From assembly GCA_017436865.1 (NCBI GenBank), contig JAFSCH010000070.1, positions 1 through 50,267 on the forward strand: 50,267 bases of DNA, read 5' to 3'. The notes under the pieces are model-generated. The model did no database searches. It was not told the origin of the DNA and saw only the letters and a program-made list of their open reading frames with translations. Positions 24,656-47,216 of this stretch are shown here, piece after piece. Position 1 is the stretch's first letter. Every line of letters begins with the position of its first letter. Origin of the DNA: Lachnospiraceae bacterium. GTDB taxonomy: Bacteria; Bacillota; Clostridia; Lachnospirales; Lachnospiraceae. A program made the translations under genes and the position numbers.

Positions 24656-24671
24656 GGTATGAGGTGTATTT

Positions 24672-25787: not shown

Positions 25788-25867
25788 AGCGGATAGTGCT
25801 CTTAATTATATGTTAGTTAATAATGAATCAAAATAATAATATTAAATTAACCAAAAGAGGTCAGAAT

Positions 25868-26122: not shown

Positions 26123-26172
26123 CAAGGGATAAAACATGCATGTTTATCATAAAAAAGGAAGGAGAGTATTAG

Positions 26173-26346: not shown

Positions 26347-26360
26347 GAATTATAGAAATA

Positions 26361-26387
26361 GAGTGGGATTTTCCCACTTTATTTTTT
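26361..26387 (+). terminator. Terminator/attenuator after the system A precursor
   Basis: AGTGGGA, loop TTT, TCCCACT, then TTATTTTTT. The stem is short (7 bp) so read-through into the ABC exporter is plausible, giving more precursor mRNA than exporter mRNA. Confidence 0.75.
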
Positions 26388-26443
26388 ATGGAAAAGTTTT
26401 TTCGCAGGAGAAAAGTTTTAGAAAAATAGTGAAGGATAAATAT

Positions 26444-28129: not shown

Positions 28130-28794
28130 GAATAGTAATTATAGATGGCTTAATAAATTCTAGTATATTAGTCAATTTGGATAAATTAACGTTATTAAAA
28201 GTGATAGATTCAAAGGTATGTAAAAAAAATCATAAGGATGAATGTAAAGGGATCACACATGCAACAATTGTAACCAGAATAATTGAACAATATGGGCATT
28301 ATGATAAATTAGATCATATTGAAATATTAAATCAAGAGGGTTTCGGGAATATTGATGATCTAATTGTAGCACTAAAATGGTGCATATCTCAAGATGTAGA
28401 TATTATTAATTTAAGTCTAGGAACAACATGTGAGGAGGATTTTGAAGAACTAGGTATTGTATGTGAACAATTAATTAATCAAGGAAAAATCATTATTGCT
28501 GCAGAACATAATCTTGGTTATTATGCAATGCCTTCTTCATTGAATAAGGTATTAAGTGTAAAAACGATAAGAACTCCATTTTTTATTATATGGGATAAAA
28601 AAAAGAATAGAATGTTGACAAATGGTAAGATATGGATAACCACTAAAGACAATGGGCATATAAAAACTCAAAGTTTCAATAGTTATGCATGTGCTTATAT
28701 AACTAGTCTAATATCAAAAAAAGGAACAGGAGTATATTGTGAAAAAATTAAGAATAGAAGAGGTTTCCAAGTGTTTTGGAAAAGGAGAAAATAA
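28126..28794 (+). CDS. Short subtilisin-like (S8) peptidase of system A
   Basis: 222 residues. A minimal S8 fold without signal peptide or propeptide: Asp7 in VIIDG, His45 in KGITHATIVTRII, oxyanion Asn129 in IIAAEHN, and Ser186 in FNSYACAYITSL. The usual HGT and GTSFAAP boxes are degenerate (THA, NSYACA), though the triad is present. Presumably a cytosolic leader peptidase for the Cys-rich precursor. The last 56 bp overlap the next gene, and the basic tail ([16 protein letters not shown]) is not typical of the family. The overlap may reflect a fused or truncated C-terminus. It starts with ATGA overlapping the exporter. Confidence 0.8.
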   Translation: MRIVIIDGLINSSILVNLDKLTLLKVIDSKVCKKNHKDECKGITHATIVTRIIEQYGHYDKLDHIEILNQEGFGNIDDLIVALKWCISQDVDIINLSLGTTCEEDFEELGIVCEQLINQGKIIIAAEHNLGYYAMPSSLNKVLSVKTIRTPFFIIWDKKKNRMLTNGKIWITTKDNGHIKTQSFNSYACAYITSLISKKGTGVYCEKIKNRRGFQVFWKRRK

Positions 28795-29407
28795 AGTTAT
28801 AGTGATAGATAACGTATCGTTTGAAGTAGAACAAGGAGCATTTGTGACAATATTAGGACCATCAGGAAGTGGTAAAACGACATTGTTAAGATGTATTTGT
28901 GGGATAGAAGATGTAGATAAAGGAAAGATATTTATTGGTAATACCGAGATTACAACAATGAATGAAGAAAAAAGAAAAAAATATCGTAGGGAAAACATTG
29001 GAATTGTATTTCAACAATATTCACTTCTTCCCATACTAAATGTACAAGAAAACATTTTACTGCCATTAAAATTCAATAGGATGAAGTTGGATGCAGAATA
29101 CTATAATAAAATCGTTGCTTTGTTAGGCATAGATAAAAAGTTGAAAGAGAAAATTACGTCACTTTCCGGTGGACAACAGCAAAGGGTAGCGATTGCAAGA
29201 GCACTAATTACAAAACCCATGTTAATTTGTGCGGATGAACCAACAGGAAATTTGGATCAGGGAAATTCTAGAGAAGTAATTCATTTATTTCAAGAAATCC
29301 GAAGCCAATTCGGAACAACTATTGTTATGATTACGCACGATGAAAACATTGCAAAACAATCAGATTATACAATAAGAATACAAGATGGAAAAATAATGAA
29401 GGAATAA
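28739..29407 (+). CDS. ABC transporter ATPase, MacB/LolD type
   Basis: 222 residues with a GTG start (28739), supported by AGGAG at 28728-28732. Walker [16 protein letters not shown], signature [15 protein letters not shown], Walker [13 protein letters not shown] and H-loop MITHDE are all present, and the Q-loop FQQYSLLPI fits the MacB/BceA subfamily. It pairs with the permease that follows by 6 bp. In bacteriocin clusters such pairs give self-immunity or resistance. It overlaps the end of the subtilisin gene. Confidence 0.92.
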
Positions 29408-29413
29408 TTAATT

Positions 29414-31153
29414 ATGATAAAGTTATTGGTAAGTTCACATTTTAAAAGTAAATGGTTGCAAAGCATAATATATATCATGATATATACTGTAGTTGTTGGA
29501 TTTTACAAGATGGCATTGTCGATTGCTATGGAAATACAGGGAAGCACAAGTGTAGCAATTATGATAATAGGAATATTATATGGCACTATGATTTTTGCTG
29601 TTGTGTTCAAAATGCAGATATTAACCAATAGAGATATTTGGTGTACTTATCATGAAATGGGAATGATTAAGAAGGAAGCAGCAAGAATAATTGTAATAGA
29701 GGATGCTATATTATTGACGTTTGGAGCTGCGTTGGGAATTATTTTGGGAAGCCACATAATTAGCTATTTATATCAGTCCACCATAAATGTAGTTATATTA
29801 GATTTATTAGTAATACTATGTATTTTGATAGCGTTTTCGATAGCTTTTTTTCTACAGGTGCAATTCTTATTTTCTCATATATGGTATAAGGAGTCTGTAG
29901 ACAGATACGATATTGCGTATAAAAGAGAAGGTATTCCTCTTTCTGTTAAAAATGTGATTCGTGAAAAGAGTAAATTGTATTTTATAGTTAGTGTTATTAC
30001 GTTTGGAATTGTAATCTTTAATACAATTATAATCGTGTTAAAGAGTGATGAAAGTGAGATTTATTTTGATAAAGCAATATGTGTTGATTTTTTTCTCTCT
30101 AATGTAGATACAAATGAGGATGTAATAAGAAAGGAAGAACAATATGTTTTAGAAGAAGATATTTTACAGGTAGAAAAGAGTAAATATTTTTTAGAAGGAG
30201 GTAGACTTTTCCACAATCTGAATAGAGAAAAAATCACATTACATACGACAAAGTTACCGGAAACATCATCTTTTGAACTTTTTTATGGACGCGAATTTGA
30301 AAGGGCATTAGATGGAAACTATTATCTGAATCTATATGGAGCAGATGACTTTATTATCGAAGAAATGGAGATTATCGAAGGTAATATTGATTTGGAAAAA
30401 CTAAAGTCAGGAAAGTATATTATATATGGGCTTGAACGAAGACCAACGGTTGAAGAATATTTTGGAAAAGTAAGCGATGAATGGAAATATTTTAATGTTG
30501 GTGATAAGATAACGCTCTGTGGAAAAGAGAAAACGCAGGAATATGAAATACTCTGTATTTGTGTAGTGAATCATTCATATGCAGAGCAAATAAATTATGC
30601 TTATCCAGGGCATGAATTAACATTTTATCTTCCAACGAATGAGTATTTGAGCTATGGCGATGATTATGCAATGCGGTATCTGTTCAATGCATCGGATGCA
30701 GAGGCAATGGAGAAAGAAATGGGAGCATTGCGGTATGAGTCTCAAGGCACGTGGAGAGAACGGTATGAGGAGGAGATGAATAAAATTAGAATGGTTGCTC
30801 AATATTTTTGCATAGCATGCGTAGGCATTGGGATATTTGTGTATTATAATACTATTTTTGTATCACTTATATCAAGAAAGGATGAGTTTATAATCCTGTC
30901 AGATATAGGTATATCGAAAAAACAGATTTTGCGAATGCTTTTAGCAGAGGGAGGACTATATGCTGTAATAGTATCCAGCGTAAGCATTGGTTGTACAATA
31001 TTGATGGCATATATGTGTAAATTTTTGTTGATTTCAGAATCATGGAGTTATCAGTTTACGTTAGAACCAGCGATGGGTATACTCATGATTATTATTTCGT
31101 TATCTTTATTAATTCCAATTGTTACGTATAGGATGGTTATTGAATCAAATTAG
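29414..31153 (+). CDS. FtsX-like ABC permease (system A immunity)
   Basis: 579 residues with clear hydrophobic segments in the N-terminal region (IIYIMIYTVVVGFYKM, ILIAFSIAFFLQVQFLF), around residue 190-210, and in a C-terminal set (YFCIACVGIGIFVYYN, YAVIVSSVSIGCTILMAYM, GILMIIISLSLLIPIVTY). Two large soluble segments lie between. This layout fits FtsX/MacB-type permeases partnered with the ATPase immediately upstream. It ends just ahead of a terminator and promoter P2. It likely exports or repels the peptide made by system A. Confidence 0.8.
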   Translation: MIKLLVSSHFKSKWLQSIIYIMIYTVVVGFYKMALSIAMEIQGSTSVAIMIIGILYGTMIFAVVFKMQILTNRDIWCTYHEMGMIKKEAARIIVIEDAILLTFGAALGIILGSHIISYLYQSTINVVILDLLVILCILIAFSIAFFLQVQFLFSHIWYKESVDRYDIAYKREGIPLSVKNVIREKSKLYFIVSVITFGIVIFNTIIIVLKSDESEIYFDKAICVDFFLSNVDTNEDVIRKEEQYVLEEDILQVEKSKYFLEGGRLFHNLNREKITLHTTKLPETSSFELFYGREFERALDGNYYLNLYGADDFIIEEMEIIEGNIDLEKLKSGKYIIYGLERRPTVEEYFGKVSDEWKYFNVGDKITLCGKEKTQEYEILCICVVNHSYAEQINYAYPGHELTFYLPTNEYLSYGDDYAMRYLFNASDAEAMEKEMGALRYESQGTWRERYEEEMNKIRMVAQYFCIACVGIGIFVYYNTIFVSLISRKDEFIILSDIGISKKQILRMLLAEGGLYAVIVSSVSIGCTILMAYMCKFLLISESWSYQFTLEPAMGILMIIISLSLLIPIVTYRMVIESN

Positions 31154-31195: not shown

Positions 31196-31258
31196 ACCGT
31201 TGAAAAAGTTAAGTGACCGTTCAAGGAGTTATGGTTGAAAGGGATTATTTTATATGCT
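31196..31258 (+). promoter_or_regulatory. LytTR-type operator and promoter P2 (system B)
   Basis: ACCGTTGAA (31196-31204) and ACCGTTCAA (31216-31224) are 20 bp apart; TATGCT (31253-31258) lies 37 bp from the start of the second. About 145 nt of leader precede the first precursor. Confidence 0.78.
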
Positions 31259-31402
31259 AATTTTATGTAGTCAATAGATATACATAAGAAGTGGTAGATA
31301 TTTTAAACTTAATATTTAATGAAGTTCTATAATAATACCGTAATATTATAGTTGATTGGTATATTTTTACATATATCAAAATAAAAGAAGGAGGATGCTA
31401 TA

Positions 31403-31549
31403 ATGGAAAAGAACATTTTAGAGACTTTGGAACCATTAACGGAGGATGATGTTAAGGTGCAATATTGTGATCGCAAAGATTGTTTGCATGATTGTCCGCC
31501 AATCGGAGGTGGGGCAAATTGTGGTCCAATAATTACATTAAGCTTTTGA
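31403..31549 (+). CDS. RiPP precursor peptide B1, 48 residues, four Cys
   Basis: The leader is MEKNILETLEPLTEDDVKVQ and the core runs from Tyr21: YCDRKDCLHDCPPIGGG then ANCGPIITLSF. Cys at 22, 27, 31 and 40 (CX4CX3CX8C). AAGGAGG precedes the ATG. A paralogue lies at 32009 with the same Cys positions. Two SPASM radical SAM enzymes and a subtilisin follow in the same direction, so Cys-centred crosslinks (sactipeptide- or ranthipeptide-like) are likely, possibly with disulfides given the thioredoxin-like gene. I do not recognise the core as a characterised class. Confidence 0.8.
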   Translation: MEKNILETLEPLTEDDVKVQYCDRKDCLHDCPPIGGGANCGPIITLSF

Positions 31550-31673
31550 TTAAAAAGGGTGATTTATTCAATGTTTTGAATAGGTCATCCTTGTATTCTG
31601 GTTCGTAGGAAGAAAGTAGAAGCGTAATAAGCATAGTAACGCAAGCAATTATTGCAATATAGAAAGAGGATAA

Positions 31674-31815
31674 GCCTGAAAAAGATACAAAAATGTTTAT
31701 TATTATAAAAAGGATTGTTCCTATTGCGCAAGAATAGAGAATCTGATTAGGCAACTAGCAGAATCAGAGGAACCTCTTTACGTTGTCAGTATGGGAAAAA
31801 CAGAATACAAAGTCT
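31674..31815 (+). pseudogene. Remnant of the thioredoxin-like gene (first tandem copy)
   Basis: Matches the start of the intact gene at 32283, but the GTG start is CTG here, about 145 bp after codon 5 are deleted, and the copy stops at the equivalent of codon 85, where it joins the next promoter unit. The reading frame runs into TAA. Recognisable codons for KKDCSYCARIENLIRQLAES remain in another frame. Confidence 0.85.
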
Positions 31816-31820
31816 TATTT

Positions 31821-31863
31821 ACTGTTCAAGGAGTTATGGTTGAAAGAGATTATTTTATATGCA
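31821..31863 (+). promoter_or_regulatory. LytTR-type half-operator and promoter P3
   Basis: ACTGTTCAA (31821-31829) lies 37 bp before TATGCA (31858-31863). The upstream repeat was lost at the junction with the pseudogene, so only one LytTR site remains. Activation may be weaker than at P2. Confidence 0.6.
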
Positions 31864-32008
31864 GATTTTATGTAGTCAATAGATATACATAAGAAGTGGT
31901 AGATATTTTAACCTTAATATTTAGTGAAGTTCTATAATAATACCGTAATGTATAATTTGCTTGGTATATTTTTTACATATATCAAAATAAAAGAAGGAGG
32001 ATGCTATA

Positions 32009-32155
32009 ATGGAAAAGAATATTTTAGAAATCTTGGAACCATTAACAGAGGATGATGTTAAGGTGCAATATTGTGATGGTACCAATTGTTTGCATGATTG
32101 TCCACCAATTGGACCTGGTCCAAATTGTGGTTCATTATTCACAACAAAAGAGTAA
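32009..32155 (+). CDS. RiPP precursor peptide B2, 48 residues, four Cys
   Basis: Paralogue of B1 with an almost identical leader (MEKNILEILEPLTEDDVKVQ). The core is YCDGTNCLHDCPPIGPG then PNCGSLFTTKE. All four Cys, CLHDCPPIG and NCG are kept, while residues 24-26, 37, 39 and the C-terminal seven vary. The pattern of constant leader and variable core positions is typical of RiPP precursors processed by the same enzymes. AAGGAGG precedes the ATG, and the intact thioredoxin-like gene follows. Confidence 0.82.
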   Translation: MEKNILEILEPLTEDDVKVQYCDGTNCLHDCPPIGPGPNCGSLFTTKE

Positions 32156-32282
32156 TCAAAATGGGGTGATTTGTTCAAGGTTTTGAGCAGGTCATCCCTG
32201 TATTTTAATTAGTAGGAAGAAAGTAGAATTGTAATAAGTATAGTAATGAAAGTAATCATTGCAATATAGAAAGAGGATAAGC

Positions 32283-32936
32283 GTGAAAAAGATACAAAAA
32301 TATATATGGATAGTGGGAGTAGTAATTATAGTTTTTTTATTTGGTATGTATTGGTTAATTCATATGAAAGATCCGTATACCGCTTTAAATAGTATACGAA
32401 ATAAAGATATATTTGAGCAAGAGGAAGAAGAGTATTATGTTTATTATTATAAAAAGGATTGTCCCTATTGCGTAAGAATAGAGAATCTGATTATGCAACT
32501 GGCAGAATCAGAAGAATCTCTTTACGTTGTTAATATGGGAAAAGACCAGAATACAAAGTCTTATGACTGGAATAAGATGCATGCGGAAGAAGATAAAGAA
32601 ATAGGAATATTAAATTTGGATAGTTCGATAACTTTTTATGAAGGGGAAAGTAAAGAAAAATATCAAAATCAAACAGATAAAAATAAATATGGAAAGATAA
32701 AGAGATATGACATTGTAGAAGCTGATGATAGATATGTTTTAAAAAATAGTAATGCTAGAATCGGTTATGTTTATGCATCCATTCAGACTCCTGAGATTGG
32801 CTATGAAGAGATGACAGATGCTGAAGAGATTGTAATTGCAGGTGTACCTACCCTTTTACATATAAAAAATGGAAAAATCGATGGCTTTTACTTTGATGCC
32901 CCTGAGATTGCAGAGCATTTAGAAGACATACAATAG
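32283..32936 (+). CDS. Membrane-anchored thioredoxin-like thiol oxidoreductase with CPYC motif
   Basis: 217 residues from a GTG start (32283) supported by AGAAAGAGG just upstream; a TTG at 32259 would add 8 residues. The N-terminal transmembrane anchor (about 8-26, WIVGVVIIVFLFGMYW) places the thioredoxin fold outside the membrane. The active site is KKDCPYCVRIENLIMQLA (Cys60, Cys63), and the cis-Pro loop appears as VIAGVPTLLHIKNGK. It resembles the PedC/BrcD bacteriocin disulfide-isomerase type. In the cluster it could oxidise or shuffle Cys of the exported peptide. The CPYC dipeptide is of glutaredoxin type. A degraded copy lies upstream. Confidence 0.85.
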   Translation: MKKIQKYIWIVGVVIIVFLFGMYWLIHMKDPYTALNSIRNKDIFEQEEEEYYVYYYKKDCPYCVRIENLIMQLAESEESLYVVNMGKDQNTKSYDWNKMHAEEDKEIGILNLDSSITFYEGESKEKYQNQTDKNKYGKIKRYDIVEADDRYVLKNSNARIGYVYASIQTPEIGYEEMTDAEEIVIAGVPTLLHIKNGKIDGFYFDAPEIAEHLEDIQ

Positions 32937-32947
32937 GGGGGAGCAAT

Positions 32948-34141
32948 TTGTTTGAATTCAGTAGATATACTCACATAATGCCGTTTGATAAATATGTAAT
33001 TGTATGTAATGTGAGAACTGGAAGCTATATGCGGGTTCCTAAGAGTTATTATAACCTTCTTAAGGATTCTAATTTAGATGAGATGGTTATATGTAATCAT
33101 GCAGATTTACAAAAGGTATTCAATAACTTGATACAACTAGGATGTATTGATAAGAAGTCAACAATAGCAGAGAAAGATACTAAAAAAGTGGATATGATAT
33201 ACTTTTCGATTACAAATAAGTGTAATTTAAAGTGTATTCATTGCTGTACAGATGCAATTAGTAATTATAGTGAAGAACTATCAGAGGAAGATGTTTTAAG
33301 TATTATTGATAAAATCATTACCTTAAATCCTAAAACACTGTGTATAACAGGCGGTGAGCCTCTAATGAGACAAAACTTTTTTAATATACTGGAGAGAATA
33401 AGGGGAAAGTTTCAGGGAAAGATTGTCTTATCCACGAATGGAACATTGATAAATCCGAGCAATGTGGAACATATAATAAAAAACGTTGATAGCATATCTA
33501 TTAGTTTGGATGGATATGATGAGGAAAGCTGTTCTGTCATAAGAGGTTCCGGAGTATTTTCCAAGTGCTGTAAGACAATAGAGCTTTTACATGAGCATGG
33601 TTTTAAAAAGATATCATTATCTATGATTGTAACAAAACATACCACAGAGAAGAGAGAAAACTTCGAAAGGCTATGTGAAAAGTATGAAGCAGAACCTTTA
33701 TTTAGGATATTAGAGCCGCTAGGACGAGGAGAAGAAATATATCAGGAATTAAAGGGAGATATGGTAGGCAAGCATGATGAAATATCTCTTGGATGTAGAG
33801 TATGTTTTCCGGGATTTAAAGAACTACATATTAATTATAATGGAAAAGTATATCCTTGTGGAGGAACAGTTGGAATTGATGAATTTGTTATTACAAATGC
33901 AAAAAATGAAGATTTTGTACAAGTGATACAAGAATTCTTGAAGGAAAGCGAACTTCCCTGTATATCACCATATAGGTCTTGGAATTGTAAATCATGTAAG
34001 GACTGTAGTATACAGTTATTTTGTCCGCTTTGTATAGGAGAAAAATATGTATTGCTTCAACAAGGTAATCTAGAGGAGGAATTTTGTAGTAGATACAGAG
34101 AAAGAATTGCAAAAGCAATGAAAGAGGAGTTATATGGATAA
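32948..34141 (+). CDS. Radical SAM/SPASM peptide maturase B1
   Basis: 397 residues from a TTG start (32948) 4 nt after GGGGGAG. The N-terminal 80 residues (FDKYVIVCNVRTGSYMRVPK and an LIQLGCIDKK helix) could be a PqqD-like peptide-binding domain. The cluster motif is CNLKCIHC (Cys92, Cys96, Cys99), with CITGGEPLMRQ and LSTNGTL following. The C-terminal SPASM region has GCRVCFPGFKELHINYNGKV, YPCGG, NCKSCKDCSIQLFCPLC and a last Cys. It is only distantly similar to the system A enzyme. It overlaps the next radical SAM gene by 8 bp, so the two are translated together. Confidence 0.9.
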   Translation: MFEFSRYTHIMPFDKYVIVCNVRTGSYMRVPKSYYNLLKDSNLDEMVICNHADLQKVFNNLIQLGCIDKKSTIAEKDTKKVDMIYFSITNKCNLKCIHCCTDAISNYSEELSEEDVLSIIDKIITLNPKTLCITGGEPLMRQNFFNILERIRGKFQGKIVLSTNGTLINPSNVEHIIKNVDSISISLDGYDEESCSVIRGSGVFSKCCKTIELLHEHGFKKISLSMIVTKHTTEKRENFERLCEKYEAEPLFRILEPLGRGEEIYQELKGDMVGKHDEISLGCRVCFPGFKELHINYNGKVYPCGGTVGIDEFVITNAKNEDFVQVIQEFLKESELPCISPYRSWNCKSCKDCSIQLFCPLCIGEKYVLLQQGNLEEEFCSRYRERIAKAMKEELYG

Positions 34142-35183
34142 GATTAGATTTACATTTTGGGTTACAGAAGAATGTAATTTGCGGTGCAATTACTGCTATG
34201 TTTCCAAGCAGCCTATAAAAATGGATAGAGTGGTAGCAGATCAGAGTATTAAGTTTGCGAAACAACAGATAGAGGAAAGAGATAATGCGGAGATTGTGGT
34301 TAGCTTTCATGGTGGAGAGCCAACTATGAATTTTGAGATTATAGAGTATCTTACAGAATATTTTACCAAGCAATATGGTAAAAGAGTATCCTTTCAACTG
34401 ACGACAAATGGGGTATTAGAGAAAGAGCATATATATGATTATTTTATGAAGAATCATTTTATGATTTCGGTTAGCTTGGATGGAGCAAAAGAATGCAATG
34501 ACCTTAACCGAATCAAGCAACAAGGCGAGAGCACTTATGATCATGTAATGCGTACGTTAGCTTATTTCAAGAAGCATGAATATGATGTCCGGTTAAGAAT
34601 GACTATTAATGCCTCCAATGTACATTTATTCTCGGAAAGCTTTAGGTTTCTATTTGATCAAAATGTGGGACCGGTAGCGTTTGCGGTGGATATGCTTCAT
34701 GACTATGATAAAAAGTTTTGGGAAACTCTTTCTATGGAGTTAGAAAAAACAATGGACTATTTATATGAACACGCATATACATGGTATGAATATTACATAA
34801 AGGCACTAGAACAAGAGTATTTATCGATTAAGAAGATTTGTGTAGGTGGAAAAGATAGCTTTCATATAGATGGAAAAGGTTGCATCTATCCGTGTATGCT
34901 TGCAGTTGGTTATGAGGAATTTTGCATTGGGGATATAGATACAGGAATTTGTGAAGAAAAAATGTGTGAAATGAACGATATAAATGAAAAGAAAAATCCT
35001 GCGTGTGAGAAATGTGCTGCAAAGCAAATATGTGCAGGAGAATACTGCAAAATAATCAACAAACGTTGCTCAGGAGATTATTTATTGCCTTCTATTAATA
35101 ATTGTAAAATGACAAAAGTTTTCAGTGAATTGATTCGAAAGAGTAAAAAAAGGTTGAAGTTGAATGGAAGTTGTTCTGATTGA
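34134..35183 (+). CDS. Radical SAM/SPASM peptide maturase B2
   Basis: 349 residues. Unlike B1 there is no N-terminal recognition domain: the cluster motif CNLRCNYC (Cys14, Cys18, Cys21) is at the very start, then VSFHGGEPTMNF and LTTNGVLEKE. SPASM-type cysteines follow: GCIYPCMLAVGYEEFCIGD, CEKCAAKQICAGEYCKIINK, RCSG and NNCK. It may rely on B1 or another protein for leader binding, or act at a second site or in sequence with B1. It resembles the anSME/QhpD-type SPASM architecture. It overlaps the following subtilisin gene by 20 bp. Confidence 0.9.
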   Translation: MDKIRFTFWVTEECNLRCNYCYVSKQPIKMDRVVADQSIKFAKQQIEERDNAEIVVSFHGGEPTMNFEIIEYLTEYFTKQYGKRVSFQLTTNGVLEKEHIYDYFMKNHFMISVSLDGAKECNDLNRIKQQGESTYDHVMRTLAYFKKHEYDVRLRMTINASNVHLFSESFRFLFDQNVGPVAFAVDMLHDYDKKFWETLSMELEKTMDYLYEHAYTWYEYYIKALEQEYLSIKKICVGGKDSFHIDGKGCIYPCMLAVGYEEFCIGDIDTGICEEKMCEMNDINEKKNPACEKCAAKQICAGEYCKIINKRCSGDYLLPSINNCKMTKVFSELIRKSKKRLKLNGSCSD

Positions 35184-36129
35184 TAGCGGTATATCTCAAA
35201 GATTACAAGACAGATGTGTCGGGGGAATGGATATTAAGTGGAATAATAATACATTTGTTTATGGAACAGATATACTTGATGAAAATGGACATGGTTCATA
35301 TTGTGCAGATGTCATCATGCGTGTTTGTCCGGATGCTTCTTTTTATGTTATTAAAATAGTTGATGGTAATGGATATTCATCTTCTGGTTTATTGTATAAG
35401 GCGTTTGAAGCCTGTAAAAAAAGAAATACAAGAATTATTTGCGTAAGCTTATCTGTTATTAAAGAGTTAGAACAGGAAAAGATAACAGATGTAATTAAGG
35501 AATTAAGGGATATGGGAAAAATTATTTGTGTCTCTGTAGAAAATGGAAAAGAGTGTAGTTTTCCCGCAAATCTATCTTCCGTAATAGGGGTTAAAGGGAG
35601 GATTTTTTATAATCAATCTTTTTACATACATGAAAAAGAAGATAGTAATATTGTATATTTTGATAGTACGCCTATAGTAGTAAGGCATCCGGAAGGAGAA
35701 TACAAATTCTTCTATGGGAATTCTAAGGCAAATGCGGTATGTGTAGGAATGATAGCAAACATATTGAACAAAAGTCCAACTATGTCTGTAGAGGAATGCT
35801 GGACTCTTCTTATTAGTAATGCAAAGGTAGAGTTTCCGGTTTTGACAGCGAATGAGATGTCTTATTTTACAAAAAAAATAAGTTATCAAGATGCAGAACT
35901 GTTTAGAAGGTTGGTATGCAAATATAATGGAAAGGATATTGGATTGGTACAGGATTACTTAGCACCAGTATTGTCGAAAAGTACAGGCATCAATATGGAT
36001 AACGTGATTTGTTTTTTACAAGTGGTAGAAAGGGAACTGCAAGTTAAAATAGATTATAAAAATCTTTCTTTTTCAAATATATTTTATTTGGGAGAATTAA
36101 TAGAGTACTTAGAAGGAATTGCTAAATGA
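35164..36129 (+). CDS. Subtilisin-like (S8) peptidase fused to an ACP-like domain
   Basis: 321 residues. The peptidase part (about 1-225) has Asp7 in VVLIDSGI, His43 in DENGHGSYCADVI, oxyanion Asn127 in VSVENGKECSFPA and Ser187 in FFYGNSKANAVCVGMIANIL. No signal peptide or propeptide, so it should act in the cytosol, probably removing the leader of the four-Cys precursors. The C-terminal 65 residues (about 255-320) read like an acyl-carrier helix bundle: LVQDYLAPVLSKSTG, INMDNVICFLQVVERELQV, KIDYKNLSFSNIFYLGELIE. The Asp-Ser attachment site is Asn-Met, so no pantetheine is expected. System A encodes these two functions as separate proteins. The last 4 bp overlap the next gene. Confidence 0.85.
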   Translation: MEVVLIDSGISQRLQDRCVGGMDIKWNNNTFVYGTDILDENGHGSYCADVIMRVCPDASFYVIKIVDGNGYSSSGLLYKAFEACKKRNTRIICVSLSVIKELEQEKITDVIKELRDMGKIICVSVENGKECSFPANLSSVIGVKGRIFYNQSFYIHEKEDSNIVYFDSTPIVVRHPEGEYKFFYGNSKANAVCVGMIANILNKSPTMSVEECWTLLISNAKVEFPVLTANEMSYFTKKISYQDAELFRRLVCKYNGKDIGLVQDYLAPVLSKSTGINMDNVICFLQVVERELQVKIDYKNLSFSNIFYLGELIEYLEGIAK

Positions 36130-37076
36130 AAAAGTCATGGTTATTAAAAGGAATCTTAAGATATAAAACAAAACTTATGGTAGCATTGATATTTATTATA
36201 TTAGATGGAATAGCAACCTTTTTGTTTCCAACATTTATCTCTGAAATAGTTGATATTGCAGTACCGTACAAGGATATCAGATATTTAATAGAGAATGTTT
36301 TGGGATTGCTGTTGGTTTCCATTCTATCTATACTTTCGGGTATAAGTGTGGACTATTTGTTTTATCATATTTCTAATAATTTTGTTTTTGATGTTAAGAA
36401 GCAAATGATTTCAGAAGCGTTTACTTATAATGGATTGAAAGTTCAAAATCGGAAATCAAAGTTAATGACATGTATGGTGGAAGATGCATATATGATAGAA
36501 ATAATCGCTTCACGGTTATTGGCTTCAACATTGTTAGACATCGTAACATTAGGAATCATGATTTATATAATGGTAAAGATAAATGTTTCCATACTTATTT
36601 TTATATGCATAGCTTATCCATTTTTGCTCTATATGCAATTTCTCTTGAATAGAAAAATAAAACAGGCAAACAGTGAGTTAATGGAAAAGAGCGATGAATC
36701 TAATTCGTTATTAACGGAATTTATTCAATATATCTATCAATATATTGCTAATAATGGGCAAAGATATTTTCAAAATAGATTTTTTGGAGTAGAGGAACAG
36801 GTAAAAGATAAAAAAATAGAAATATGTATGTTAAAAACTTATAATTCCTATATTCCGCAGTTTGTGAATGCAATAGCATTTGCATTAATTGTTGGCTATT
36901 GTGCTTATAAAGTGATATATGGAGAGATATCCATTGGAGAATTGACAATCATTATTATGTATATACGACAAATTTCAACTAGTTTTATTAGGATTGTAAT
37001 GGCAATTAGTGAATTCCAAAGAATCGAAATATCCGTAAGACGAATCAATGAGGTAATGAATGAAGAAGATGAATAA
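36126..37076 (+). CDS. ABC exporter membrane subunit (split type, system B)
   Basis: 316 residues, only a membrane domain. Six hydrophobic stretches are visible: LMVALIFIILDGIATFLF, NVLGLLLVSILSILSGI, two near 130-175 (LLDIVTLGIMIYIMV, ILIFICIAYPFLLYM), FVNAIAFALIVGYCAY and ELTIIIMYIRQISTSF. The C-terminus EISVRRINEVMNEEDE corresponds to the linker before the ATPase domain in fused exporters. The ATPase is encoded by the next gene in the +1 frame with a 17-bp overlap. In system A the equivalent protein is a single chain. Confidence 0.85.
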   Translation: MKKSWLLKGILRYKTKLMVALIFIILDGIATFLFPTFISEIVDIAVPYKDIRYLIENVLGLLLVSILSILSGISVDYLFYHISNNFVFDVKKQMISEAFTYNGLKVQNRKSKLMTCMVEDAYMIEIIASRLLASTLLDIVTLGIMIYIMVKINVSILIFICIAYPFLLYMQFLLNRKIKQANSELMEKSDESNSLLTEFIQYIYQYIANNGQRYFQNRFFGVEEQVKDKKIEICMLKTYNSYIPQFVNAIAFALIVGYCAYKVIYGEISIGELTIIIMYIRQISTSFIRIVMAISEFQRIEISVRRINEVMNEEDE

Positions 37077-37710
37077 TGTGATTAGCTCATTATGTTTTAA
37101 AAGTGTTAATTTTGCATATGAAGAGAGCAAGAATATATTTGCAGAAAGTATATCTGTTGAATTTCAGATAGGAAGCATAAATGTTGTGACAGGGGAGAAT
37201 GGTTGTGGTAAATCTACATTATTGAACTTGCCATTAGGAATTTGGGATAACTATAGTGGGTCTATCTATATGGATAAGGAAGAGGTGAGGGCTTTCGATA
37301 AGGAGCATTTACGCAATTTAGTATCCTATGCTTTCCAGATGCCGGCAATAGTAAAGGACACTATTCTAAATAATATTGCCTGGGGAAAAACGATAGAGAT
37401 AGAAAGAATCGCTCGTTTAGTAGAAGCAATTAATTTTCGTGATGATATAGAATCCAAACCACAATCCTTTCACACGATAATTGACCGTGAGGCGCTCTCA
37501 CAAGGACAGTTGCAAAAGATGGAGATTGCTAGAGTTTTATATACAGATAGTCCGATTATGATATTTGATGAACCAACTTCGAATTTAGATGTGAAATCAG
37601 TTCATGCATTGATCAGATTGTTGAAGGAAATAAAGCATCAACATTTGATTATTATCATATCGCATGATGATAGAATCGTTCAAGAGGCTGATTATAAGCT
37701 TAGACTGTGA
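37060..37710 (+). CDS. ABC exporter ATPase subunit (split type, system B)
   Basis: 216 residues, only an ATPase domain. Walker A VTGENGCGKSTLLNL, Q-loop YAFQMPAI, signature LSQGQLQKMEIARVL, Walker B IMIFDEPTSNLD and H-loop IIISHDD are all present. It presumably assembles with the membrane subunit upstream to export the mature peptide. The 17-bp overlap, with an internal start inside the upstream reading frame, indicates translational coupling. No N-terminal peptidase domain is present, consistent with leader removal by the subtilisin. Confidence 0.9.
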   Translation: MKKMNNVISSLCFKSVNFAYEESKNIFAESISVEFQIGSINVVTGENGCGKSTLLNLPLGIWDNYSGSIYMDKEEVRAFDKEHLRNLVSYAFQMPAIVKDTILNNIAWGKTIEIERIARLVEAINFRDDIESKPQSFHTIIDREALSQGQLQKMEIARVLYTDSPIMIFDEPTSNLDVKSVHALIRLLKEIKHQHLIIIISHDDRIVQEADYKLRL

Positions 37711-37768
37711 TGTATGGTAGTTATATTTGTGAAAAGAGAATCGAAAAACGTAGATAGGGAGGAAAAGT

Positions 37769-38440
37769 ATGTCACTTATTTTGGAAGCAACAGAACTAAA
37801 AAAATATTATGGTAGTGGAAGTAATCTTGTTAAGGCGGTGGATCATATATCATTTTCTGTTGAGAAGGGAGAGTTTGTTGCGATAGTAGGAAAATCCGGC
37901 TCAGGAAAAAGCACCTTATTAAATCTCATAGGGGGACTTGACTCGGCTGATTCGGGAAGTGTAATGATACAGGGAAAGGAACTTTTTGATCTTTCGGAAG
38001 AAGAACGAACGGTGTTTAGAAGAAGAAATATTGGATTTGTTTTTCAGAATTATAATTTATTACCTACGGCAACGGTATACAAAAATATTATACTACCGAT
38101 ACAGTTAGACAATAAAAAAGTAGACAAAACATATCTGGATGAAGTAATAGAGAAGCTGGAGTTAGCAGAGAAGCTACAGTTGAAGCCGAATCAGTTATCC
38201 GGTGGACAGCAACAGAGAGTTGCCATTGCACGTGCACTTGCTGCAAAGCCGGCTATTATACTGGCAGATGAACCAACGGGGAATTTGGATTCTGAAACAA
38301 GTGGAAATGTTATGCAGCTTCTACAAAAGACCATTAAGGATTTCGGACAGACCATGATTATGATTACGCATAATGATGAGATTGCCGCTATGGCGAATCG
38401 AATATTACATATAAAGGATGGAAGAATATTGGAGGAGTGA
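37769..38440 (+). CDS. ABC transporter ATPase, MacB/BceA type (system B immunity)
   Basis: 223 residues. Walker A IVGKSGSGKSTLLNL, Q-loop VFQNYNLLPTA, signature [15 protein letters not shown], Walker [13 protein letters not shown] and H-loop MITHND. Very typical of BceA/MacB ATPases that work with a large permease. AGGGAGG precedes the ATG. It follows the exporter ATPase by 58 bp without a visible terminator, so it is probably co-transcribed. It precedes the 836-residue permease by 4 bp. Confidence 0.93.
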   Translation: MSLILEATELKKYYGSGSNLVKAVDHISFSVEKGEFVAIVGKSGSGKSTLLNLIGGLDSADSGSVMIQGKELFDLSEEERTVFRRRNIGFVFQNYNLLPTATVYKNIILPIQLDNKKVDKTYLDEVIEKLELAEKLQLKPNQLSGGQQQRVAIARALAAKPAIILADEPTGNLDSETSGNVMQLLQKTIKDFGQTMIMITHNDEIAAMANRILHIKDGRILEE

Positions 38441-38444
38441 CAGA

Positions 38445-40955
38445 ATGGATAAAAAACACAGTCATAAAACGATATTAAAGGAACTGGCATGGGGACAGCT
38501 ACGCTCTCATAAGGGACGTAACTGTGTTATGAGCATTGCAGTCATGCTGACAGCCATGCTATTGTCCTTTGTATTTACAGCAGGATTTAGCTTTCTTACG
38601 ACCATGGAAAATTCTGTACAGGCGTCACCGGGTCCCATGGAAGATGGTGGAGTCATTGGGACAGCGGAACAATTTGAAGAAATTCAAAAAATGGATATGG
38701 TGGAATGGGCAGATTTTGTACAGATTTGCAGTGCTTATGTTTTAAAAAATGATCTCTTTGCAGGAATACAGACGCACTTATATGCTCCGGATGAAAATTT
38801 CTATTTGCATAATGAAATCCATGTACTAGAGGGAGAATACCCTCAAAAAGAAAATGACATCATGATATCGGATACATTGGCAAAGCGTCTTATGATTGAG
38901 CAGATAGGCAAAGAGTTTGATCTTCAGGTAATGATAGAATCAGAATCAGGACCGGAAGAGAAAATAATGACCATGAATATCTGTGGAATTTATAATAATC
39001 CGCTTAGGAATATAAGTGATATTTATGAAGAGATTTACACAATGCCCGAGTTTGTGAATCGATACAATCCTGAATTAAGAAGAGACCAGAATTTTATTTA
39101 TGTCAAATTAAACAATCTCAATCCTTTCGCACTAAAGACAGATGTCTATCAGGTTCTGGTGGATATAAAGGAAGCGGTCGGAGCAAATGGTATTGTTACA
39201 AGGCATTACAATAATTTTATTTTTGCTCTCATAGCAATCCTACCGATACTCCTTGTAGTATTGCTTATTATGCTGAGTGGATACTTTTTGATCTATAATG
39301 TGTTCTCTATTTCTCTTGCTATGGATGTTGCATGGCTTGGACTAATGAAAACGATAGGAACGACACACAAGCAGCTTAATTACATATATCGTTATCAGAT
39401 ATCGGTTTTATCAGTGCTTGGTATGTGTGGTGGTATCATACTAGGATATGTAATGGGTGCCTTTCTTGGACCGGGTATACTTGCGATGACATCGTTTGCT
39501 TTATTTTATGAAAATACGAATCCTTTATGGGTAATTCTGTTTACTGTTGCTTTTACCAAGGCGACAACATGGATTGGAGTCTCCAAAGTAGTGAGGAAGG
39601 TAGCAGCCTTATCTGCCATAGAGGCGGCAAAGTATGTCCCACACCATAAGAAGAAAATTGTTACCGTTATGTCCTTTGCACTAAGTGGAATCATATTTAT
39701 AGCAGTAGGAAATGCGGTTTTTGGTTATCAGATTGAGCGAAAGGTAGAACGTTTTAATCAAGAGGATTGCAGAATATGGCACGCTGCTAGGTTTTGGGAG
39801 TTAGAGGAGGCGTATCAGCCAATTTCTGTCGGAGCCTATGAAAGCATAGAGAAGCTGCCGTTTGTGAAACATGTGGATATTATTTATAAAGGAAAGACAA
39901 GACCGGATGAAATAGATTATGATGGAATAAAATATTATGAACCATTTTTGGCGGAGGTTTCCATGGATACAGAACTGGAAGCAGAACTAGAGGCGATGCG
40001 CCGTAATAACATAGATATAACGGCATGGAATCGGCTTGAAAATGGCAATGTTAAATTGGAAATTATGGGTATCACGGCAAGCAGATTAGAAAAAGAACTG
40101 GCATATGTTGATATCCTGGAAGGGGCAATTAATGTAGATTTATTCGCCCAAGGAAACTATATACTATATCAGACACCGCGGTTTTATAAAAATGATGGGG
40201 AAGTGCCGGAGGAAGATAAGGTACATGCCGGTGATCTGTTAAGCTTGCGCTTCTATGATGACAAGAAGGACTGCTATATACCAAGAGAAATGAAGGTTAT
40301 GGCTGTAATAGAGCAAATCGATCCTTATGGAACAGGAAATATCAATAACAGTAATATTGTGATGGTAGATGATGCATTTCAAGAAATATATTCAGGATAT
40401 GAAGAAAACATTGCAGCAATGGAAGTAAGTACAAAGTATGAGTTGGGCAAAGAGGAGATAGAAGCAGTTAGGGAAATCATACGGAAGGAAAATAATGTAC
40501 AGCTTTATTTTGACTCCCGATATCAAAGTTATGAAGAACATACGGCGGAAAGAAAAACGTTTATTATTATTGGATTGTTTCTCTCTGCGGTATTAGGAAT
40601 GATAGGAATCTCTAATCTGCTGAATACCTTGGTAATGGATACGTTATTTAGGAAGGAGCAGATTGCGGTGCTGCAATCCATCGGTATGACAAAAGCACAG
40701 CTTAGAAGAATGTTATTTTTCGATTATATGAAGATAGGATTTGCAGCAATGGTCATTATCTTGCTTGCTGGTAGATATGTAGCAGTAGCCATTGCATCAA
40801 GTTCTACTTTTACAGGATTTAGTGAAAATATTTTTGTGAAAGAAGCAATAGGAATTGTTCTGTTTATTATTATCTTATCAGGGGGATTAGCTTGTATCCT
40901 AACAAAATGGTTGAATCGTAAAACGATAGTGGAGCGATTAGGAATCTTAAACTAG
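38445..40955 (+). CDS. Large MacB/FtsX-type ABC permease (system B immunity)
   Basis: 836 residues. Start at 38445 (MDKKHSHKTILKELAWGQLR) with GGAGG upstream. Ten or so hydrophobic segments are arranged as in two-half permeases: one near 27-48 (NCVMSIAVMLTAMLLSFVF), a group around 265-390, one near 405-425, and a C-terminal group from about 705 (IIGLFLSAVLGMIGISNLL) to the end. Large extracellular regions lie between. Residues 735-755 (KEQIAVLQSIGMTKAQLRRM) match the conserved FtsX-family cytoplasmic loop. With the upstream ATPase it likely protects the producer against the peptide made by system B. Confidence 0.88.
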   Translation: MDKKHSHKTILKELAWGQLRSHKGRNCVMSIAVMLTAMLLSFVFTAGFSFLTTMENSVQASPGPMEDGGVIGTAEQFEEIQKMDMVEWADFVQICSAYVLKNDLFAGIQTHLYAPDENFYLHNEIHVLEGEYPQKENDIMISDTLAKRLMIEQIGKEFDLQVMIESESGPEEKIMTMNICGIYNNPLRNISDIYEEIYTMPEFVNRYNPELRRDQNFIYVKLNNLNPFALKTDVYQVLVDIKEAVGANGIVTRHYNNFIFALIAILPILLVVLLIMLSGYFLIYNVFSISLAMDVAWLGLMKTIGTTHKQLNYIYRYQISVLSVLGMCGGIILGYVMGAFLGPGILAMTSFALFYENTNPLWVILFTVAFTKATTWIGVSKVVRKVAALSAIEAAKYVPHHKKKIVTVMSFALSGIIFIAVGNAVFGYQIERKVERFNQEDCRIWHAARFWELEEAYQPISVGAYESIEKLPFVKHVDIIYKGKTRPDEIDYDGIKYYEPFLAEVSMDTELEAELEAMRRNNIDITAWNRLENGNVKLEIMGITASRLEKELAYVDILEGAINVDLFAQGNYILYQTPRFYKNDGEVPEEDKVHAGDLLSLRFYDDKKDCYIPREMKVMAVIEQIDPYGTGNINNSNIVMVDDAFQEIYSGYEENIAAMEVSTKYELGKEEIEAVREIIRKENNVQLYFDSRYQSYEEHTAERKTFIIIGLFLSAVLGMIGISNLLNTLVMDTLFRKEQIAVLQSIGMTKAQLRRMLFFDYMKIGFAAMVIILLAGRYVAVAIASSSTFTGFSENIFVKEAIGIVLFIIILSGGLACILTKWLNRKTIVERLGILN

Positions 40956-41003
40956 ATATTCACATAAAAGGGGGCGGTTAACGGGAGCAATGATGTTGTA
41001 AAG

Positions 41004-41073
41004 AAGTTATAGAAAAAGATCTGACAGGCATCCGAAGCGTGGCACAACTGTCAGATCTTTCTATAACTTTTTT
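41004..41073 (+). terminator. Very long terminator ending system B
   Basis: AAGTTATAGA plus AAGATCTGACAG (41004-41027) pair with CTGTCAGATCTT plus TCTATAACTT (41048-41069), interrupted by only two unpaired bases, then TTTT. The 20-nt loop has no recognisable feature. Confidence 0.9.
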
Positions 41074-41190: not shown

Positions 41191-42267
41191 TCATAGCAAT
41201 AACAGTCTCTTATGCACGTAATCATTATCACACATTTCCAACATTTTATTTATATCTATACTCAGATATTTCACTGCTTTTTTTGCAACATCCAACATAC
41301 TTACCATTTCACCTGTTAATAACTGATGCGACAGACTATTATACTCTAGTGGCGCTTTAAATGCATGATCAAAATCGAAAATAGGTGTCAATCCTGTCAA
41401 CTTGCAATCTTTGTCAAACATCAATCCCCAATTATCCTGATGTCTATCACTATTTCCTATCAAATAATCACATAATACCATTGTGTAATACTCTTTTAAA
41501 TACTTTGCTGTCACTTCGACATTCAAATCATAATTCATATTGTAATCTCCAGCCGTGACAAATCCTGTATTTTCATCCGTAAAACACTCACACTTAGACA
41601 CTACCCCATCTTTAAGCTTCGCTAGTTCATACTCTAATACATCAAATCCTAATCTCCTTAAAACGCGTGATGCTTCTACTTCGTTATATATTACATCTTC
41701 TGTTCCGCCTTTTAACATATATAAATTATTTCCATCACGAACCCACGCTTTAGGTGCCACACCGTCTGTTGCAATATCTTTGTCTGCAAAAGATGTAGCA
41801 TTAAGAGTAAGCGCCTTTCCTCTTAATGCAATATCTACAATCTCACCAACTGAATTTTTAAACAGATTTATACTTTCCCATGTGTCACCTGCATCAGTTC
41901 GTACCCAATAAAAATCTTTAATTGATAAGCACTTAAATAGTAAAGCTATCCTTGCTCTATCTGAATCATTCTTTGCCTGCTTAACATTTATAGCATTTAA
42001 AATCTCTTTTGCGTACTTCCTATCTAAGCACAGTATTCTGTTTGCACACCAGGCTTCAAAATTAATTCTATTATTAAACATAATATCGAAATCATTATCA
42101 TCCTGCTCCAAATATAAATCTTTAGGCAATAATTTAATATCTAAAAATTTAACGTTACCTTTTGATGTAATGATGCAAATCTCTCTGTTTTGAGCCATCA
42201 ACGTCCATGACATTATTGGTTTGCATTTAGATTTTAACTCTCCACAAGTATTTTCTAAATCTGTCAT
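41191..42267 (-). CDS. HipA-like serine/threonine kinase
   Basis: 358 residues on the minus strand. The C-terminal half carries a HipA/CtkA-type kinase fold: LYMLKGG with a probable ATP lysine (Lys186), catalytic loop DYLIGNSDRHQDNWGLMFD (Asp274, Asn279) and PIFDFDHAF with the metal-binding Asp (298-300). The N-terminal half has no recognised domain. No HipB-type antitoxin is next to it. GGGAGG (complement of 42277-42282) precedes the ATG. Orientation opposite to everything around it and placement between two repeat copies suggest an insertion. Toxin function is not established. Confidence 0.8.
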   Translation of the reverse strand: MTDLENTCGELKSKCKPIMSWTLMAQNREICIITSKGNVKFLDIKLLPKDLYLEQDDNDFDIMFNNRINFEAWCANRILCLDRKYAKEILNAINVKQAKNDSDRARIALLFKCLSIKDFYWVRTDAGDTWESINLFKNSVGEIVDIALRGKALTLNATSFADKDIATDGVAPKAWVRDGNNLYMLKGGTEDVIYNEVEASRVLRRLGFDVLEYELAKLKDGVVSKCECFTDENTGFVTAGDYNMNYDLNVEVTAKYLKEYYTMVLCDYLIGNSDRHQDNWGLMFDKDCKLTGLTPIFDFDHAFKAPLEYNSLSHQLLTGEMVSMLDVAKKAVKYLSIDINKMLEMCDNDYVHKRLLLL

Positions 42268-42671: not shown

Positions 42672-42693
42672 ATGTATAAGCATGGAGGCTGGC

Positions 42694-43977
42694 ATGGAAA
42701 ATTTAGCTTGGGGTATTGTATTCATTATGGAAGTAATGAAATATATATTGGCAGAGAAAATCTTTTTCAAAAGAACAATAGAGAGAAAGTGGGGAGGCAC
42801 TATAGTTTTCCTTGTATATATGTTGATTATTTGGTTAGTACCAACTTCTAAAGAGGAAGTGCAGTATATTGTTATGTATGCAATGGCAATTATAACAGTA
42901 TATATAATGATACAGCAGAAAAAGGCGAAAGACTTTGTGCACATTTTGATATTGTTGATTGAATTATCATGTATAGATGGAGTAGTAGAGATTTTTATAA
43001 GAGCTATTCTAAAAAGAATAGAATGTACTAATTTATTATATGAATATCAGATTCTGTTAAATAATAGTATTGTTTTAATATTGTTTTGTGTGGCATATAT
43101 ATACATAAAACAGAAGAAAGTTATGAGAAGAAAAATAAAAATTGAATATATTTGGATTATCATACTGTGTATGATGGTAAATATTTTATTGACGGCAGCA
43201 GGGTTGTATGTTGCTAAAGAGTATGTTAGAAATGATTTATTTGATTCGTTTTTTACTATTACAAATATATGCTCTTATATTTCGGTTGGATTAATGATTT
43301 TTTTTATGATATATATAAAAAACACAAATCAAAAAATGCAACAATTATTAATTACTGAAAAGCAACTGAAAGAAGCACAGGAACACTATTATCGTTCTTT
43401 GTTAAAAAAGGAAGAAGAAACTCGAAAGAGCCGGCATGATTGGAATAATCATTTGATATGTTTGGCAGAGCTGGCGAAAAAGGAGAATGCAGATAATACC
43501 AAGCAGTATATTGATGCATTAATGAAGCAAAATGCCTATTTAAAGGATAGGCAATATGATGTGGGAAATGATATATTAAATGCAATTTTATGCTACCACT
43601 TATCCGAGTTAGATGATGATATATCAGTAAGAATAGCGGGGAAATGCAGAAATGATATAAATATAGCTGCGGTTGATTTGTGTGTTATTGTATCTAATTT
43701 GGTTCAAAATGCAGTAGAATATTTAAAAGGTAATAATATAGAATCAAAAGAATTAACGGTTTCCATAGAAGAAGGAAATGTATACAAAAGGATATCTGTT
43801 GTAAACAGTGTAGATCCAAATATGTCTGAGCGCAATCTGAAAACAACTACAAAATCAGATAAAAGAAATCATGGAATTGGATTTAGAAATGTGAAAGAGA
43901 CAATAGAAAAAAATGGTGGGAAACTGGAAATTAACATTCAAGAAGGCATGTTTAAGGCGGATGTTATATGGAAATAA
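42694..43977 (+). CDS. GHKL-type sensor histidine kinase, orphan paralogue
   Basis: 427 residues, a close paralogue of the kinase at 21696 (MENLAWGIVFIMEVMKYILA versus MENIIWSVIFIVETMKYVLA). Membrane segments occupy about 2-205, His248 lies in KSRHDWNNHLICLA, and the ATPase part has VIVSNLVQNAVEYL and HGIGFRNVKETIEKNGGK. The catalytic half is strongly conserved, while the membrane half is more diverged, which would fit a changed ligand. The start at 42694 is set by GGAGG at 42684-42688. Its own regulator is truncated, so it may signal through the regulator at 20916. Confidence 0.9.
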   Translation: MENLAWGIVFIMEVMKYILAEKIFFKRTIERKWGGTIVFLVYMLIIWLVPTSKEEVQYIVMYAMAIITVYIMIQQKKAKDFVHILILLIELSCIDGVVEIFIRAILKRIECTNLLYEYQILLNNSIVLILFCVAYIYIKQKKVMRRKIKIEYIWIIILCMMVNILLTAAGLYVAKEYVRNDLFDSFFTITNICSYISVGLMIFFMIYIKNTNQKMQQLLITEKQLKEAQEHYYRSLLKKEEETRKSRHDWNNHLICLAELAKKENADNTKQYIDALMKQNAYLKDRQYDVGNDILNAILCYHLSELDDDISVRIAGKCRNDINIAAVDLCVIVSNLVQNAVEYLKGNNIESKELTVSIEEGNVYKRISVVNSVDPNMSERNLKTTTKSDKRNHGIGFRNVKETIEKNGGKLEINIQEGMFKADVIWK

Positions 43978-46601: not shown

Positions 46602-46713
46602 AAATGAAAAAGGGGATTATGGTAGGTGTTAAACTTAAGTTTTACATATATTTACGACTGAATGCATGCAGGAGTAAAACACAAAAATCAAAAAATAAGG
46701 AGGAGTAAGTACA

Positions 46714-47115: not shown

Positions 47116-47132
47116 GTCATAGAATTAGTAAA

Positions 47133-47175: not shown

Positions 47176-47216
47176 AAGAAATATAACCTCGTTAAATATA
47201 AGATATGGGAGAAGAT

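Follow-up and report, generated by a model that had tools for sequence, protein, structure and literature searches.

Two short cysteine-rich peptides encoded beside two unlike radical S-adenosylmethionine (SAM) enzymes raise the question of what such a gene set makes and whether its product belongs to a known class. The genes, referred to as system B, are located at 31.2-41.0 kb of a 50,267-nucleotide stretch of DNA from a Lachnospiraceae bacterium (contig JAFSCH010000070.1, assembly GCA_017436865.1), which was analysed as a whole and is called the window. A preliminary description had interpreted them as a cluster for a ribosomally synthesized and post-translationally modified peptide (RiPP) with two maturases acting on one peptide. 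Our reading, with a probability of about 0.7, is a RiPP pathway of an unnamed family in which the second radical SAM enzyme (R2) would link a Cys to an Asp, the first (R1) would form a second crosslink, an S8 peptidase would cut the peptide, an ATP-binding cassette (ABC) protein would export it and a thioredoxin-like protein with a CPYC motif would handle its thiols. That R1 and R2 mature this peptide as a RiPP is almost certain. All the genes listed here are open, lie on the + strand and follow the stated order in the list of open reading frames (ORFs) and in the NCBIfam and Pfam scans, which confirms the gene set, order and single direction first described.

31216-31559, + strand: copy 1 of a duplicated upstream region with precursor 1 (direct repeats with a second copy 605-606 bp further downstream, at 92% identity for D2 and 85% for D1)
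31403-31549, + strand: precursor peptide 1, 48 aa, core YCDRKDCLHDCPPIGGGANCG (ORF, alignment; one of two matches in the genome)
31690-31818, + strand: broken remnant of the CPYC gene from a tandem duplication (repeat D4 matches 32437-32543 at 93% identity, and D6 matches 32542-32564 at 91%)
32009-32155, + strand: precursor peptide 2, 48 aa, core YCDGTNCLHDCPPIGPGPNCG (ORF; 72% identity over 43 aa with a Clostridium sp. E02 peptide)
32259-32936, + strand: predicted membrane-anchored thioredoxin-like CPYC protein, probable GTG start at 32283 (weak Trx/Grx profile matches)
32948-34141, + strand: R1, radical SAM/SPASM enzyme (CNLKCIHC) with an N-terminal domain of about 90 aa (PF04055, 87.5 bits)
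34134-35183, + strand: R2, PapB/QhpD-like radical SAM/SPASM enzyme (CNLRCNYC) without N-terminal domain (NF047865, 193.4 bits)
35164-36129, + strand: S8 peptidase (D7, H43, S187) with a C-terminal helical domain resembling an acyl carrier protein (ACP) but lacking its Ser (PF00082, 40.3 bits; QhpE NF049966, 86.5 bits)
36126-37076, + strand: ABC exporter, membrane half (PF00664, 84.2 bits; split form kept in relatives)
37060-37710, + strand: ABC exporter, ATPase half (PF00005, 86.1 bits)
37769-38440, + strand: LolD/MacB-type ABC ATPase (NF038007, 232.3 bits, cut-off 375)
38418-40955, + strand: 845-aa permease of the FtsX type that pairs with the LolD protein (PF02687, 45.4 bits; homologues in many loci)

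Five junctions overlap (R1/R2, R2/S8, S8/ABC, ABC/ABC and LolD/FtsX), in line with the earlier impression of mostly overlapping genes, and short gaps separate CPYC from R1 and the exporter ATPase from LolD. The split of the exporter is genuine, since the same split form is kept in relatives, and a frameshift was ruled out on this ground.

Evidence for a family comes from a census of 47 distinct loci picked by R1 alone, with 43 further radical SAM loci of the same scan as controls. The loci are best matches from a pattern-based scan of named genome contigs with the R1 alignment, which gave at least 79 loci; nine duplicates were dropped before counting (L056, L057, L059, L060, L063, L065, L069, L079, L087), and those kept include close kin that are not independent (L022/L024, L054/L085, L080/L082, L023/L077). 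R2 was present in 39 of the 47 loci and in none of the 43 controls; its distance from R1 is at most 26 bp in 34 of these 39, and 0.4 to 5.6 kb in the remaining five (L021, L049, L058, L073, L086). In one locus (L039), R1 and R2 are fused into a single 753-aa protein. In the same way, the S8 peptidase was found in 36/47 loci versus 2/43 controls. A small ORF with the motif C-x2-D-C within 8 kb of R1, the window being counted, occurred in 35/47 loci, in 34 of the 39 that have R2 and in 1/43 controls. Two maturases on one peptide, as initially proposed, are thus a recurring arrangement, and the pairing of precursor and enzymes persists in relatives. In Clostridium sp. E02, the gene order equals that of the window at 41-72% identity. 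As a control on the motif, Asp was swapped for nine other residues, which lowered the count among the 39 loci from 34 to 0-5; Asp is therefore favoured as an acceptor over a recognition residue.

The two 48-residue precursors have exactly the C-x4-C-x3-C-x8-C spacing first noted. They are 75% identical, each is preceded by AGGAGG, and a search of the 4.2 Mb genome with their profile gave no match elsewhere (E up to 1). Both are located on a tandem duplication of about 606 bp (pieces 85-92% identical) covering the region upstream as well as a portion of the CPYC gene, and the CPYC copy behind precursor 1 is a remnant. The two genes differ at 18 codons, 6 silently and 12 not, with only 1 of the 12 within residues 1-23; no Cys and not the core Asp has been altered. 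In an alignment of ten precursors, the C, D and C of C-x2-D-C and one further Cys are the sole invariant residues, and across the precursors found the constant core feature is C-x2-D-C plus at least one additional Cys. The longer core CLHDCPPIG, suggested earlier as the signature to look for beside paired SPASM enzymes, is common, among the precursors found, only to the window and Clostridium sp. E02; what recurs in the family is its C-x2-D-C part. The window precursors had no NCBIfam or Pfam match, and the ten precursors no NCBIfam match at E up to 1.

The position of the additional Cys varies with the enzyme set, as judged by reading the precursor list. Six loci have two R1 genes: in five, extra Cys precede C-x2-D-C and none follow, while L078, the sixth, has Cys on either side. 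Where a locus of the S8 type has a single R1, its precursors carry a Cys after the motif. In Blautia sp. Marseille-P3201T (L049, 1310-15096, on the same contig as L056), a single R1/R2 set is surrounded by three groups of C-x4-C-x2-D-C precursors, eight different ones in all. In L071, which also has an S8-LolD fusion, a small Cys peptide without C-x2-D-C (12214-12408) adjoins R1, R2 and the fusion gene and may be a divergent substrate or belong to another family.

R1 and R2 are unlike SPASM enzymes, as first described, with different best profiles. R1 has a Pfam SPASM match of 21.1 bits, slightly under the cut-off, and its nearest profiles are MftC TIGR03962 (112.6 bits, cut-off 265) and StsB (101.6, cut-off 625); AlbA gave 61.2 bits (cut-off 850), and against SkfB, E was 3.9e-26. 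Its best Foldseek match is 5why/5wgg, which we take to be CteB (401-415 columns, TM 0.49). In its AlphaFold model, the N-terminus is arranged as three strands followed by three helices (block pLDDT, the predicted confidence per residue, 63-83). This is the topology of the RiPP recognition element (RRE), so that the domain of about 90 aa could be a leader-binding RRE. The median start of the radical SAM motif CX3CX2C is about residue 105 among 47 R1 proteins versus 14 among 38 R2 proteins, which means that room for a leader-binding domain usually exists in R1 and not in R2. On the basis of this room and the modelled topology, we propose that R1 binds the leader on behalf of both enzymes.

R2 scored best against PapB (NF047865) over 6-316, nearly the whole model, without reaching the cut-off of 340, and RumMC gave 67.9 bits (cut-off 720). 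By profile, its closest solved structure is 5wgg (E 2.3e-59). PapB is reported to bond Cys with either Asp or Glu and to tolerate C-Xn-D spacings of n = 0-6, while the transposed D-x3-C yielded no product (PMC9413430). By analogy, R2 may make a Cys-Asp thioether, for which we see odds slightly better than even. Since the NCBIfam matches listed all stay below cut-off, the activities of R1 and R2 could differ from those of their relatives.

The S8 peptidase very probably removes the leader. Its nearest named family is QhpE (cut-off 165), and the catalytic Ser and His are kept in 24/24 rows of the alignment and Asp in 23/24, the missing one belonging to a shortened row (L073). By profile, its neighbours among solved proteins are two intracellular serine proteases and then subtilisin BPN'; by fold, the best 50 of 1292 Foldseek matches are only subtilisins, the first rows being secreted ones. 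A cytosolic location, as first supposed, is supported because the catalytic Asp is already residue 7, and a signal peptide would not fit in front of it. S8 is missing in 11/47 loci, of which four (L025, L081, L084, L086) have R1, R2 and a C-x2-D-C peptide. The contig of L025 ends soon after R1. The other three have exporters that start with a C39 peptidase (110-116 bits) and precursors whose leaders are of the double-glycine type (two with SEEELNxYYGG, one with a G-K variant), while none of four S8-type exporters tested had a C39 match. This replacement argues that S8 is the leader peptidase.

The earlier description of a subtilisin-ACP fusion stood in part. In the S8 model (pLDDT 88.9), the tail helices 241-255, 281-292, 303-306 and 309-320 follow the ACP order, and the tail matches real ACPs weakly by profile (hhalign probability 26.6), with no NCBIfam match and no relevant Pfam match to ACP. 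No Ser is found in window residues 274-284, at the start of helix II. The presumed attachment column has Ser in 0/24 rows, Asn in 13 (Asn280 in the window) and otherwise Asp, Lys, Glu or Met. In L022 and L024, the residue just before this column is Ser, and hhalign aligns the Ser of real ACPs with a Met of the window that lies two residues before the column. Because the attachment Ser is absent, the tail is not a working carrier in the window, and a functional ACP was rejected for this copy.

The CPYC protein appears from its N-terminus to be membrane-anchored, and its probable start is the in-frame GTG at 32283, which is preceded by a better ribosome site. Its Trx/Grx matches are below cut-off; CPYC is followed later by V-P, probably with the cis-Pro, and CPYC or CPFC is kept in 5/5 aligned homologues. 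The closest solved match is a weak one to the bacteriocin transport accessory protein 1zma (E 0.015). A thioredoxin-like ORF with an N-terminal hydrophobic stretch occurred in 8/47 loci, counted with seven known members as queries and a loose pattern, so that proteins of another make could be missed; only L055 and L085 were inspected by eye, chosen since their precursors had extra Cys. In these Paenibacillus loci, the protein is of a different make (CYYC or CSDC; Pfam Thioredoxin 24.4 bits in L055 and 22.0 in L085, cut-off 23.5). The eight loci form one R1 clade (support 100/94). All seven with visible precursors have C-x4-C-x2-D-C, with an extra Cys four places before the motif (L055 has one C-x4 and one C-x3 peptide), and reading of the precursor list gave C-x4 in no locus outside the clade, L067 having C-x3. 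Since the protein and the C-x4 Cys share one clade, a task of the protein on this extra Cys is plausible, and we give it even chances. The supposition of disulfide adjustment outside the cell has thereby become more specific, within a single clade.

From these observations, we infer bond types, order of steps and activity as follows. The precursor leader would bind R1 through its RRE-like N-terminal domain, and R1 and R2 would act as a pair. R2, as an enzyme of the PapB/QhpD kind, would bond the first Cys of C-x2-D-C to the invariant Asp, and R1 would make a second bond from another Cys. S8 would then cut the leader in the cytosol, where its ACP-like tail might, at a guess, hold the substrate or the enzymes. 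The split ABC protein would export the core, the exported CPYC protein would oxidise or reshuffle the left-over Cys, which would be the extra upstream one of its clade, and LolD/FtsX could be a second exporter or provide immunity. A bolder form is put forward tentatively, at odds well short of even. In it, both enzymes act on the same five residues, R2 linking the beta carbon of Asp with the first Cys, and R1 linking a neighbouring residue, by different chemistry, with either the second Cys of C-x2-D-C or the third Cys; the product would be a fused polycyclic knot of mixed crosslinks, with S8 and C39 exchangeable and an outside disulfide in one clade, and would define a new RiPP class widespread in Firmicutes.

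Several points weigh against the proposed pathway. The R1 model is poor beyond its core (whole-model pLDDT 72), and its N-terminal domain has no meaningful PDB-sequence match of its own and none to PqqD in Pfam. R2 reaches 193 of the 340 bits required for PapB, none of the at least 25 NCBIfam families matched by R1 or R2 attains its cut-off, and the known PapB motif is a repeated C-x3-D while the window has a single C-x2-D. Five of the 39 R1+R2 loci lack the C-x2-D-C ORF: L068 and L083 are short contigs, the contig of L054 ends before the site where its kin L085 has peptides, and L038 and L071, neither short nor end-cut, have R1, R2 and S8 with no such peptide found. R2 is absent from 8/47 loci, and L041, L075 and L076 among them carry R1 and S8. 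In the other five, R1 matches are weak (L042, L043), the locus starts at a contig end (L026), R1 is partial (L077) or the locus is fragmented (L088). The link between the thioredoxin-like protein and the extra Cys rests on one clade, perhaps one event. Finally, the sampled searches give no true frequencies, the phylum sample having found 1/398 despite named Paenibacillus and Peptostreptococcaceae loci. As a separate observation, L088 has R1 and R2 pieces in several frames at 9947-11473 and seems to be a decaying copy.

Both enzymes could instead be sactipeptide synthases working in one complex like TrnC/TrnD of thuricin CD, with bonds from Cys to alpha carbons and Asp as a recognition residue. 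This agrees with the StsB and SkfB matches of R1, and two radical SAM enzymes likewise cooperate on Cys peptides in thuricin CD and thuricin Z (PMC12093266). These make alpha-carbon thioethers. R2, however, is nearest to PapB and CteB, makers of non-alpha-carbon bonds according to PMC11002830, and the swaps of Asp fit an acceptor better than a recognition residue; the sactipeptide account is rather unlikely. A redox-active or metal-binding peptide, or a signal, is a quite unlikely alternative on the following balance: the Cys of C-x2-D-C would stay free or in a disulfide and bind metal, and the enzymes would alter other residues by epimerisation or C-C bonds near the often aromatic C-terminus. 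Many precursors do end in W, F, Y or L, R1 is related to MftC, which acts on C-terminal residues, and the P. sordellii copy adjoins agr signalling genes. Yet Cys and Asp are the sole invariant residues in the ten-precursor alignment, and a Cys-rich core next to a SPASM enzyme usually denotes a thioether peptide.

It could also be asked whether system B is no more than another copy of the CcpM/CLI_3235 type, represented next door by system A. Both have a QhpE-like S8 peptidase, ABC and LolD/FtsX genes, a Cys-rich precursor and an ACP-like element. Nonetheless, R2 reaches only 122 of the 500 bits of TIGR04068, the precursors have no TIGR04065 match and R1 is additional, while system A meets or nearly meets these profiles; systems of this type, such as SacP23, are further described in PMC10731318 with one CcpM enzyme, a separate ACP-related protein (with Ser in system A) and TIGR04066. 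The copy hypothesis was rejected as highly improbable.

The proposed RiPP pathway with two putative crosslinking enzymes shares features with several other known systems. With freyrasin and the PapB ranthipeptides, it has in common the nearest profile of R2, the order Cys then Asp and a start of both profile and R2 at the radical SAM motif; it differs by a single C-x2-D-C instead of six C-x3-D and by the pairing of R2 with R1. The Qhp system of quinohemoprotein amine dehydrogenase (QhpC-QhpD-QhpE-QhpF) is a worked model, since PMC7876137 describes radical SAM Cys-Asp/Glu crosslinks and subtilisin-like leader removal by QhpE before ABC export. In contrast, system B has a short peptide, two radical SAM enzymes and no dehydrogenase subunit recognised among the scanned window genes, and its scores are 86.5 of 165 bits for QhpE and 112 of 453 for QhpD. 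Bicyclostreptin (HghB/HghC) also involves two radical SAM enzymes on one peptide but has a His-Gly-His motif, an O-C crosslink and a separate RRE protein (PMC11002830). For SCIFF/thermocellin, R2 gave 115 of 425 bits (TIGR03974, SCIFF/CteB), and no SCIFF precursor match was found in ten precursors.

A short precursor with leader, modifying enzymes, a leader peptidase and an exporter are encoded together, as in RiPP systems generally. No recognisable description of C-x2-D-C with paired radical SAM enzymes was found in the open-licence literature, subscription literature being outside the search. The NCBIfam scans did not identify it either, and the suggestion of an undescribed product holds as far as searched. 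This is a real RiPP family that probably works like PapB and Qhp and is a member of neither by cut-offs. A testable family is thus defined by a five-residue core motif, two co-travelling radical enzymes, once fused, and a natural swap of leader peptidase, and such enzyme pairs are tools for crosslinked peptides.

The loci occur in gut genera (Blautia, Claveliimonas and other Lachnospiraceae) and in Paenibacillus, some on plasmids. A search with R1, which like all these counts includes the own genome, found it in 2/200 genomes of the family and 6/38 of the genus. With an eight-row R1 profile and 4 candidates scored per genome, the numbers were 8/397 in the family (E 1e-45), 5/392 in the order (E 1e-60), all within the family, and the own genome alone of 398 in the phylum (E 1e-60). 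A pattern-based contig scan with the R1 sequence alone found no relative. Named hosts among the matches listed are Clostridium sp. E02, Paenibacillus maysiensis, Paenibacillus tritici, Paenibacillus ottowii, Paenibacillus silagei, Blautia sp. Marseille-P3201T, Claveliimonas monacensis, Clostridium saudiense, Velocimicrobium porci, Tepidibacter and Peptostreptococcaceae; L071 is labelled Muribaculum, and the other loci are spread over several Firmicutes families. Among 72,556 plasmid records, R1 was found in three, two from P. sordellii and one from C. difficile. One plasmid of each species was examined; on it, S8 and a C-x2-D-C peptide are encoded together with R1 and a further radical SAM gene, and these records annotate the maturases as 'radical SAM protein' and the precursors as 'hypothetical protein'. 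In the P. sordellii plasmid copy (L139), agrB and the gene of a cyclic lactone autoinducer adjoin three radical SAM genes. In three unannotated human-faecal phage records (H4-H6), R2-like proteins were seen at 26-30% identity.

Other peptide systems surround system B. System A (23261-31153) is of the CcpM/CLI_3235 (SacP23) type, with 493.9 bits for CcpM (cut-off 500) and 179.6 for TIGR04066 (cut-off 200). Its ACP-related protein at 25823-26122 gave 34.5 bits with TIGR04069 (cut-off 70) and has an intact DSVD, and its precursor at 26173-26346 gave 32.3 bits with TIGR04065, over the cut-off of 26. A third peptide system at 44367-48983 comprises a C39 peptidase-exporter (C39, 122.9 bits) and two 133-aa proteins without NCBIfam match, whose very similar starts ending in EEMTYVEGG are likely double-glycine leaders. 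On either side of the peptide systems, at 20916-22973 and 42682-43977, are genes for a LytTR response regulator and two GHKL kinases that resemble each other, which suggests quorum-sensing control. Finally, a HipA-like kinase (36.1 bits) is encoded on the minus strand at 41191-42267, between system B and the third system (system C).

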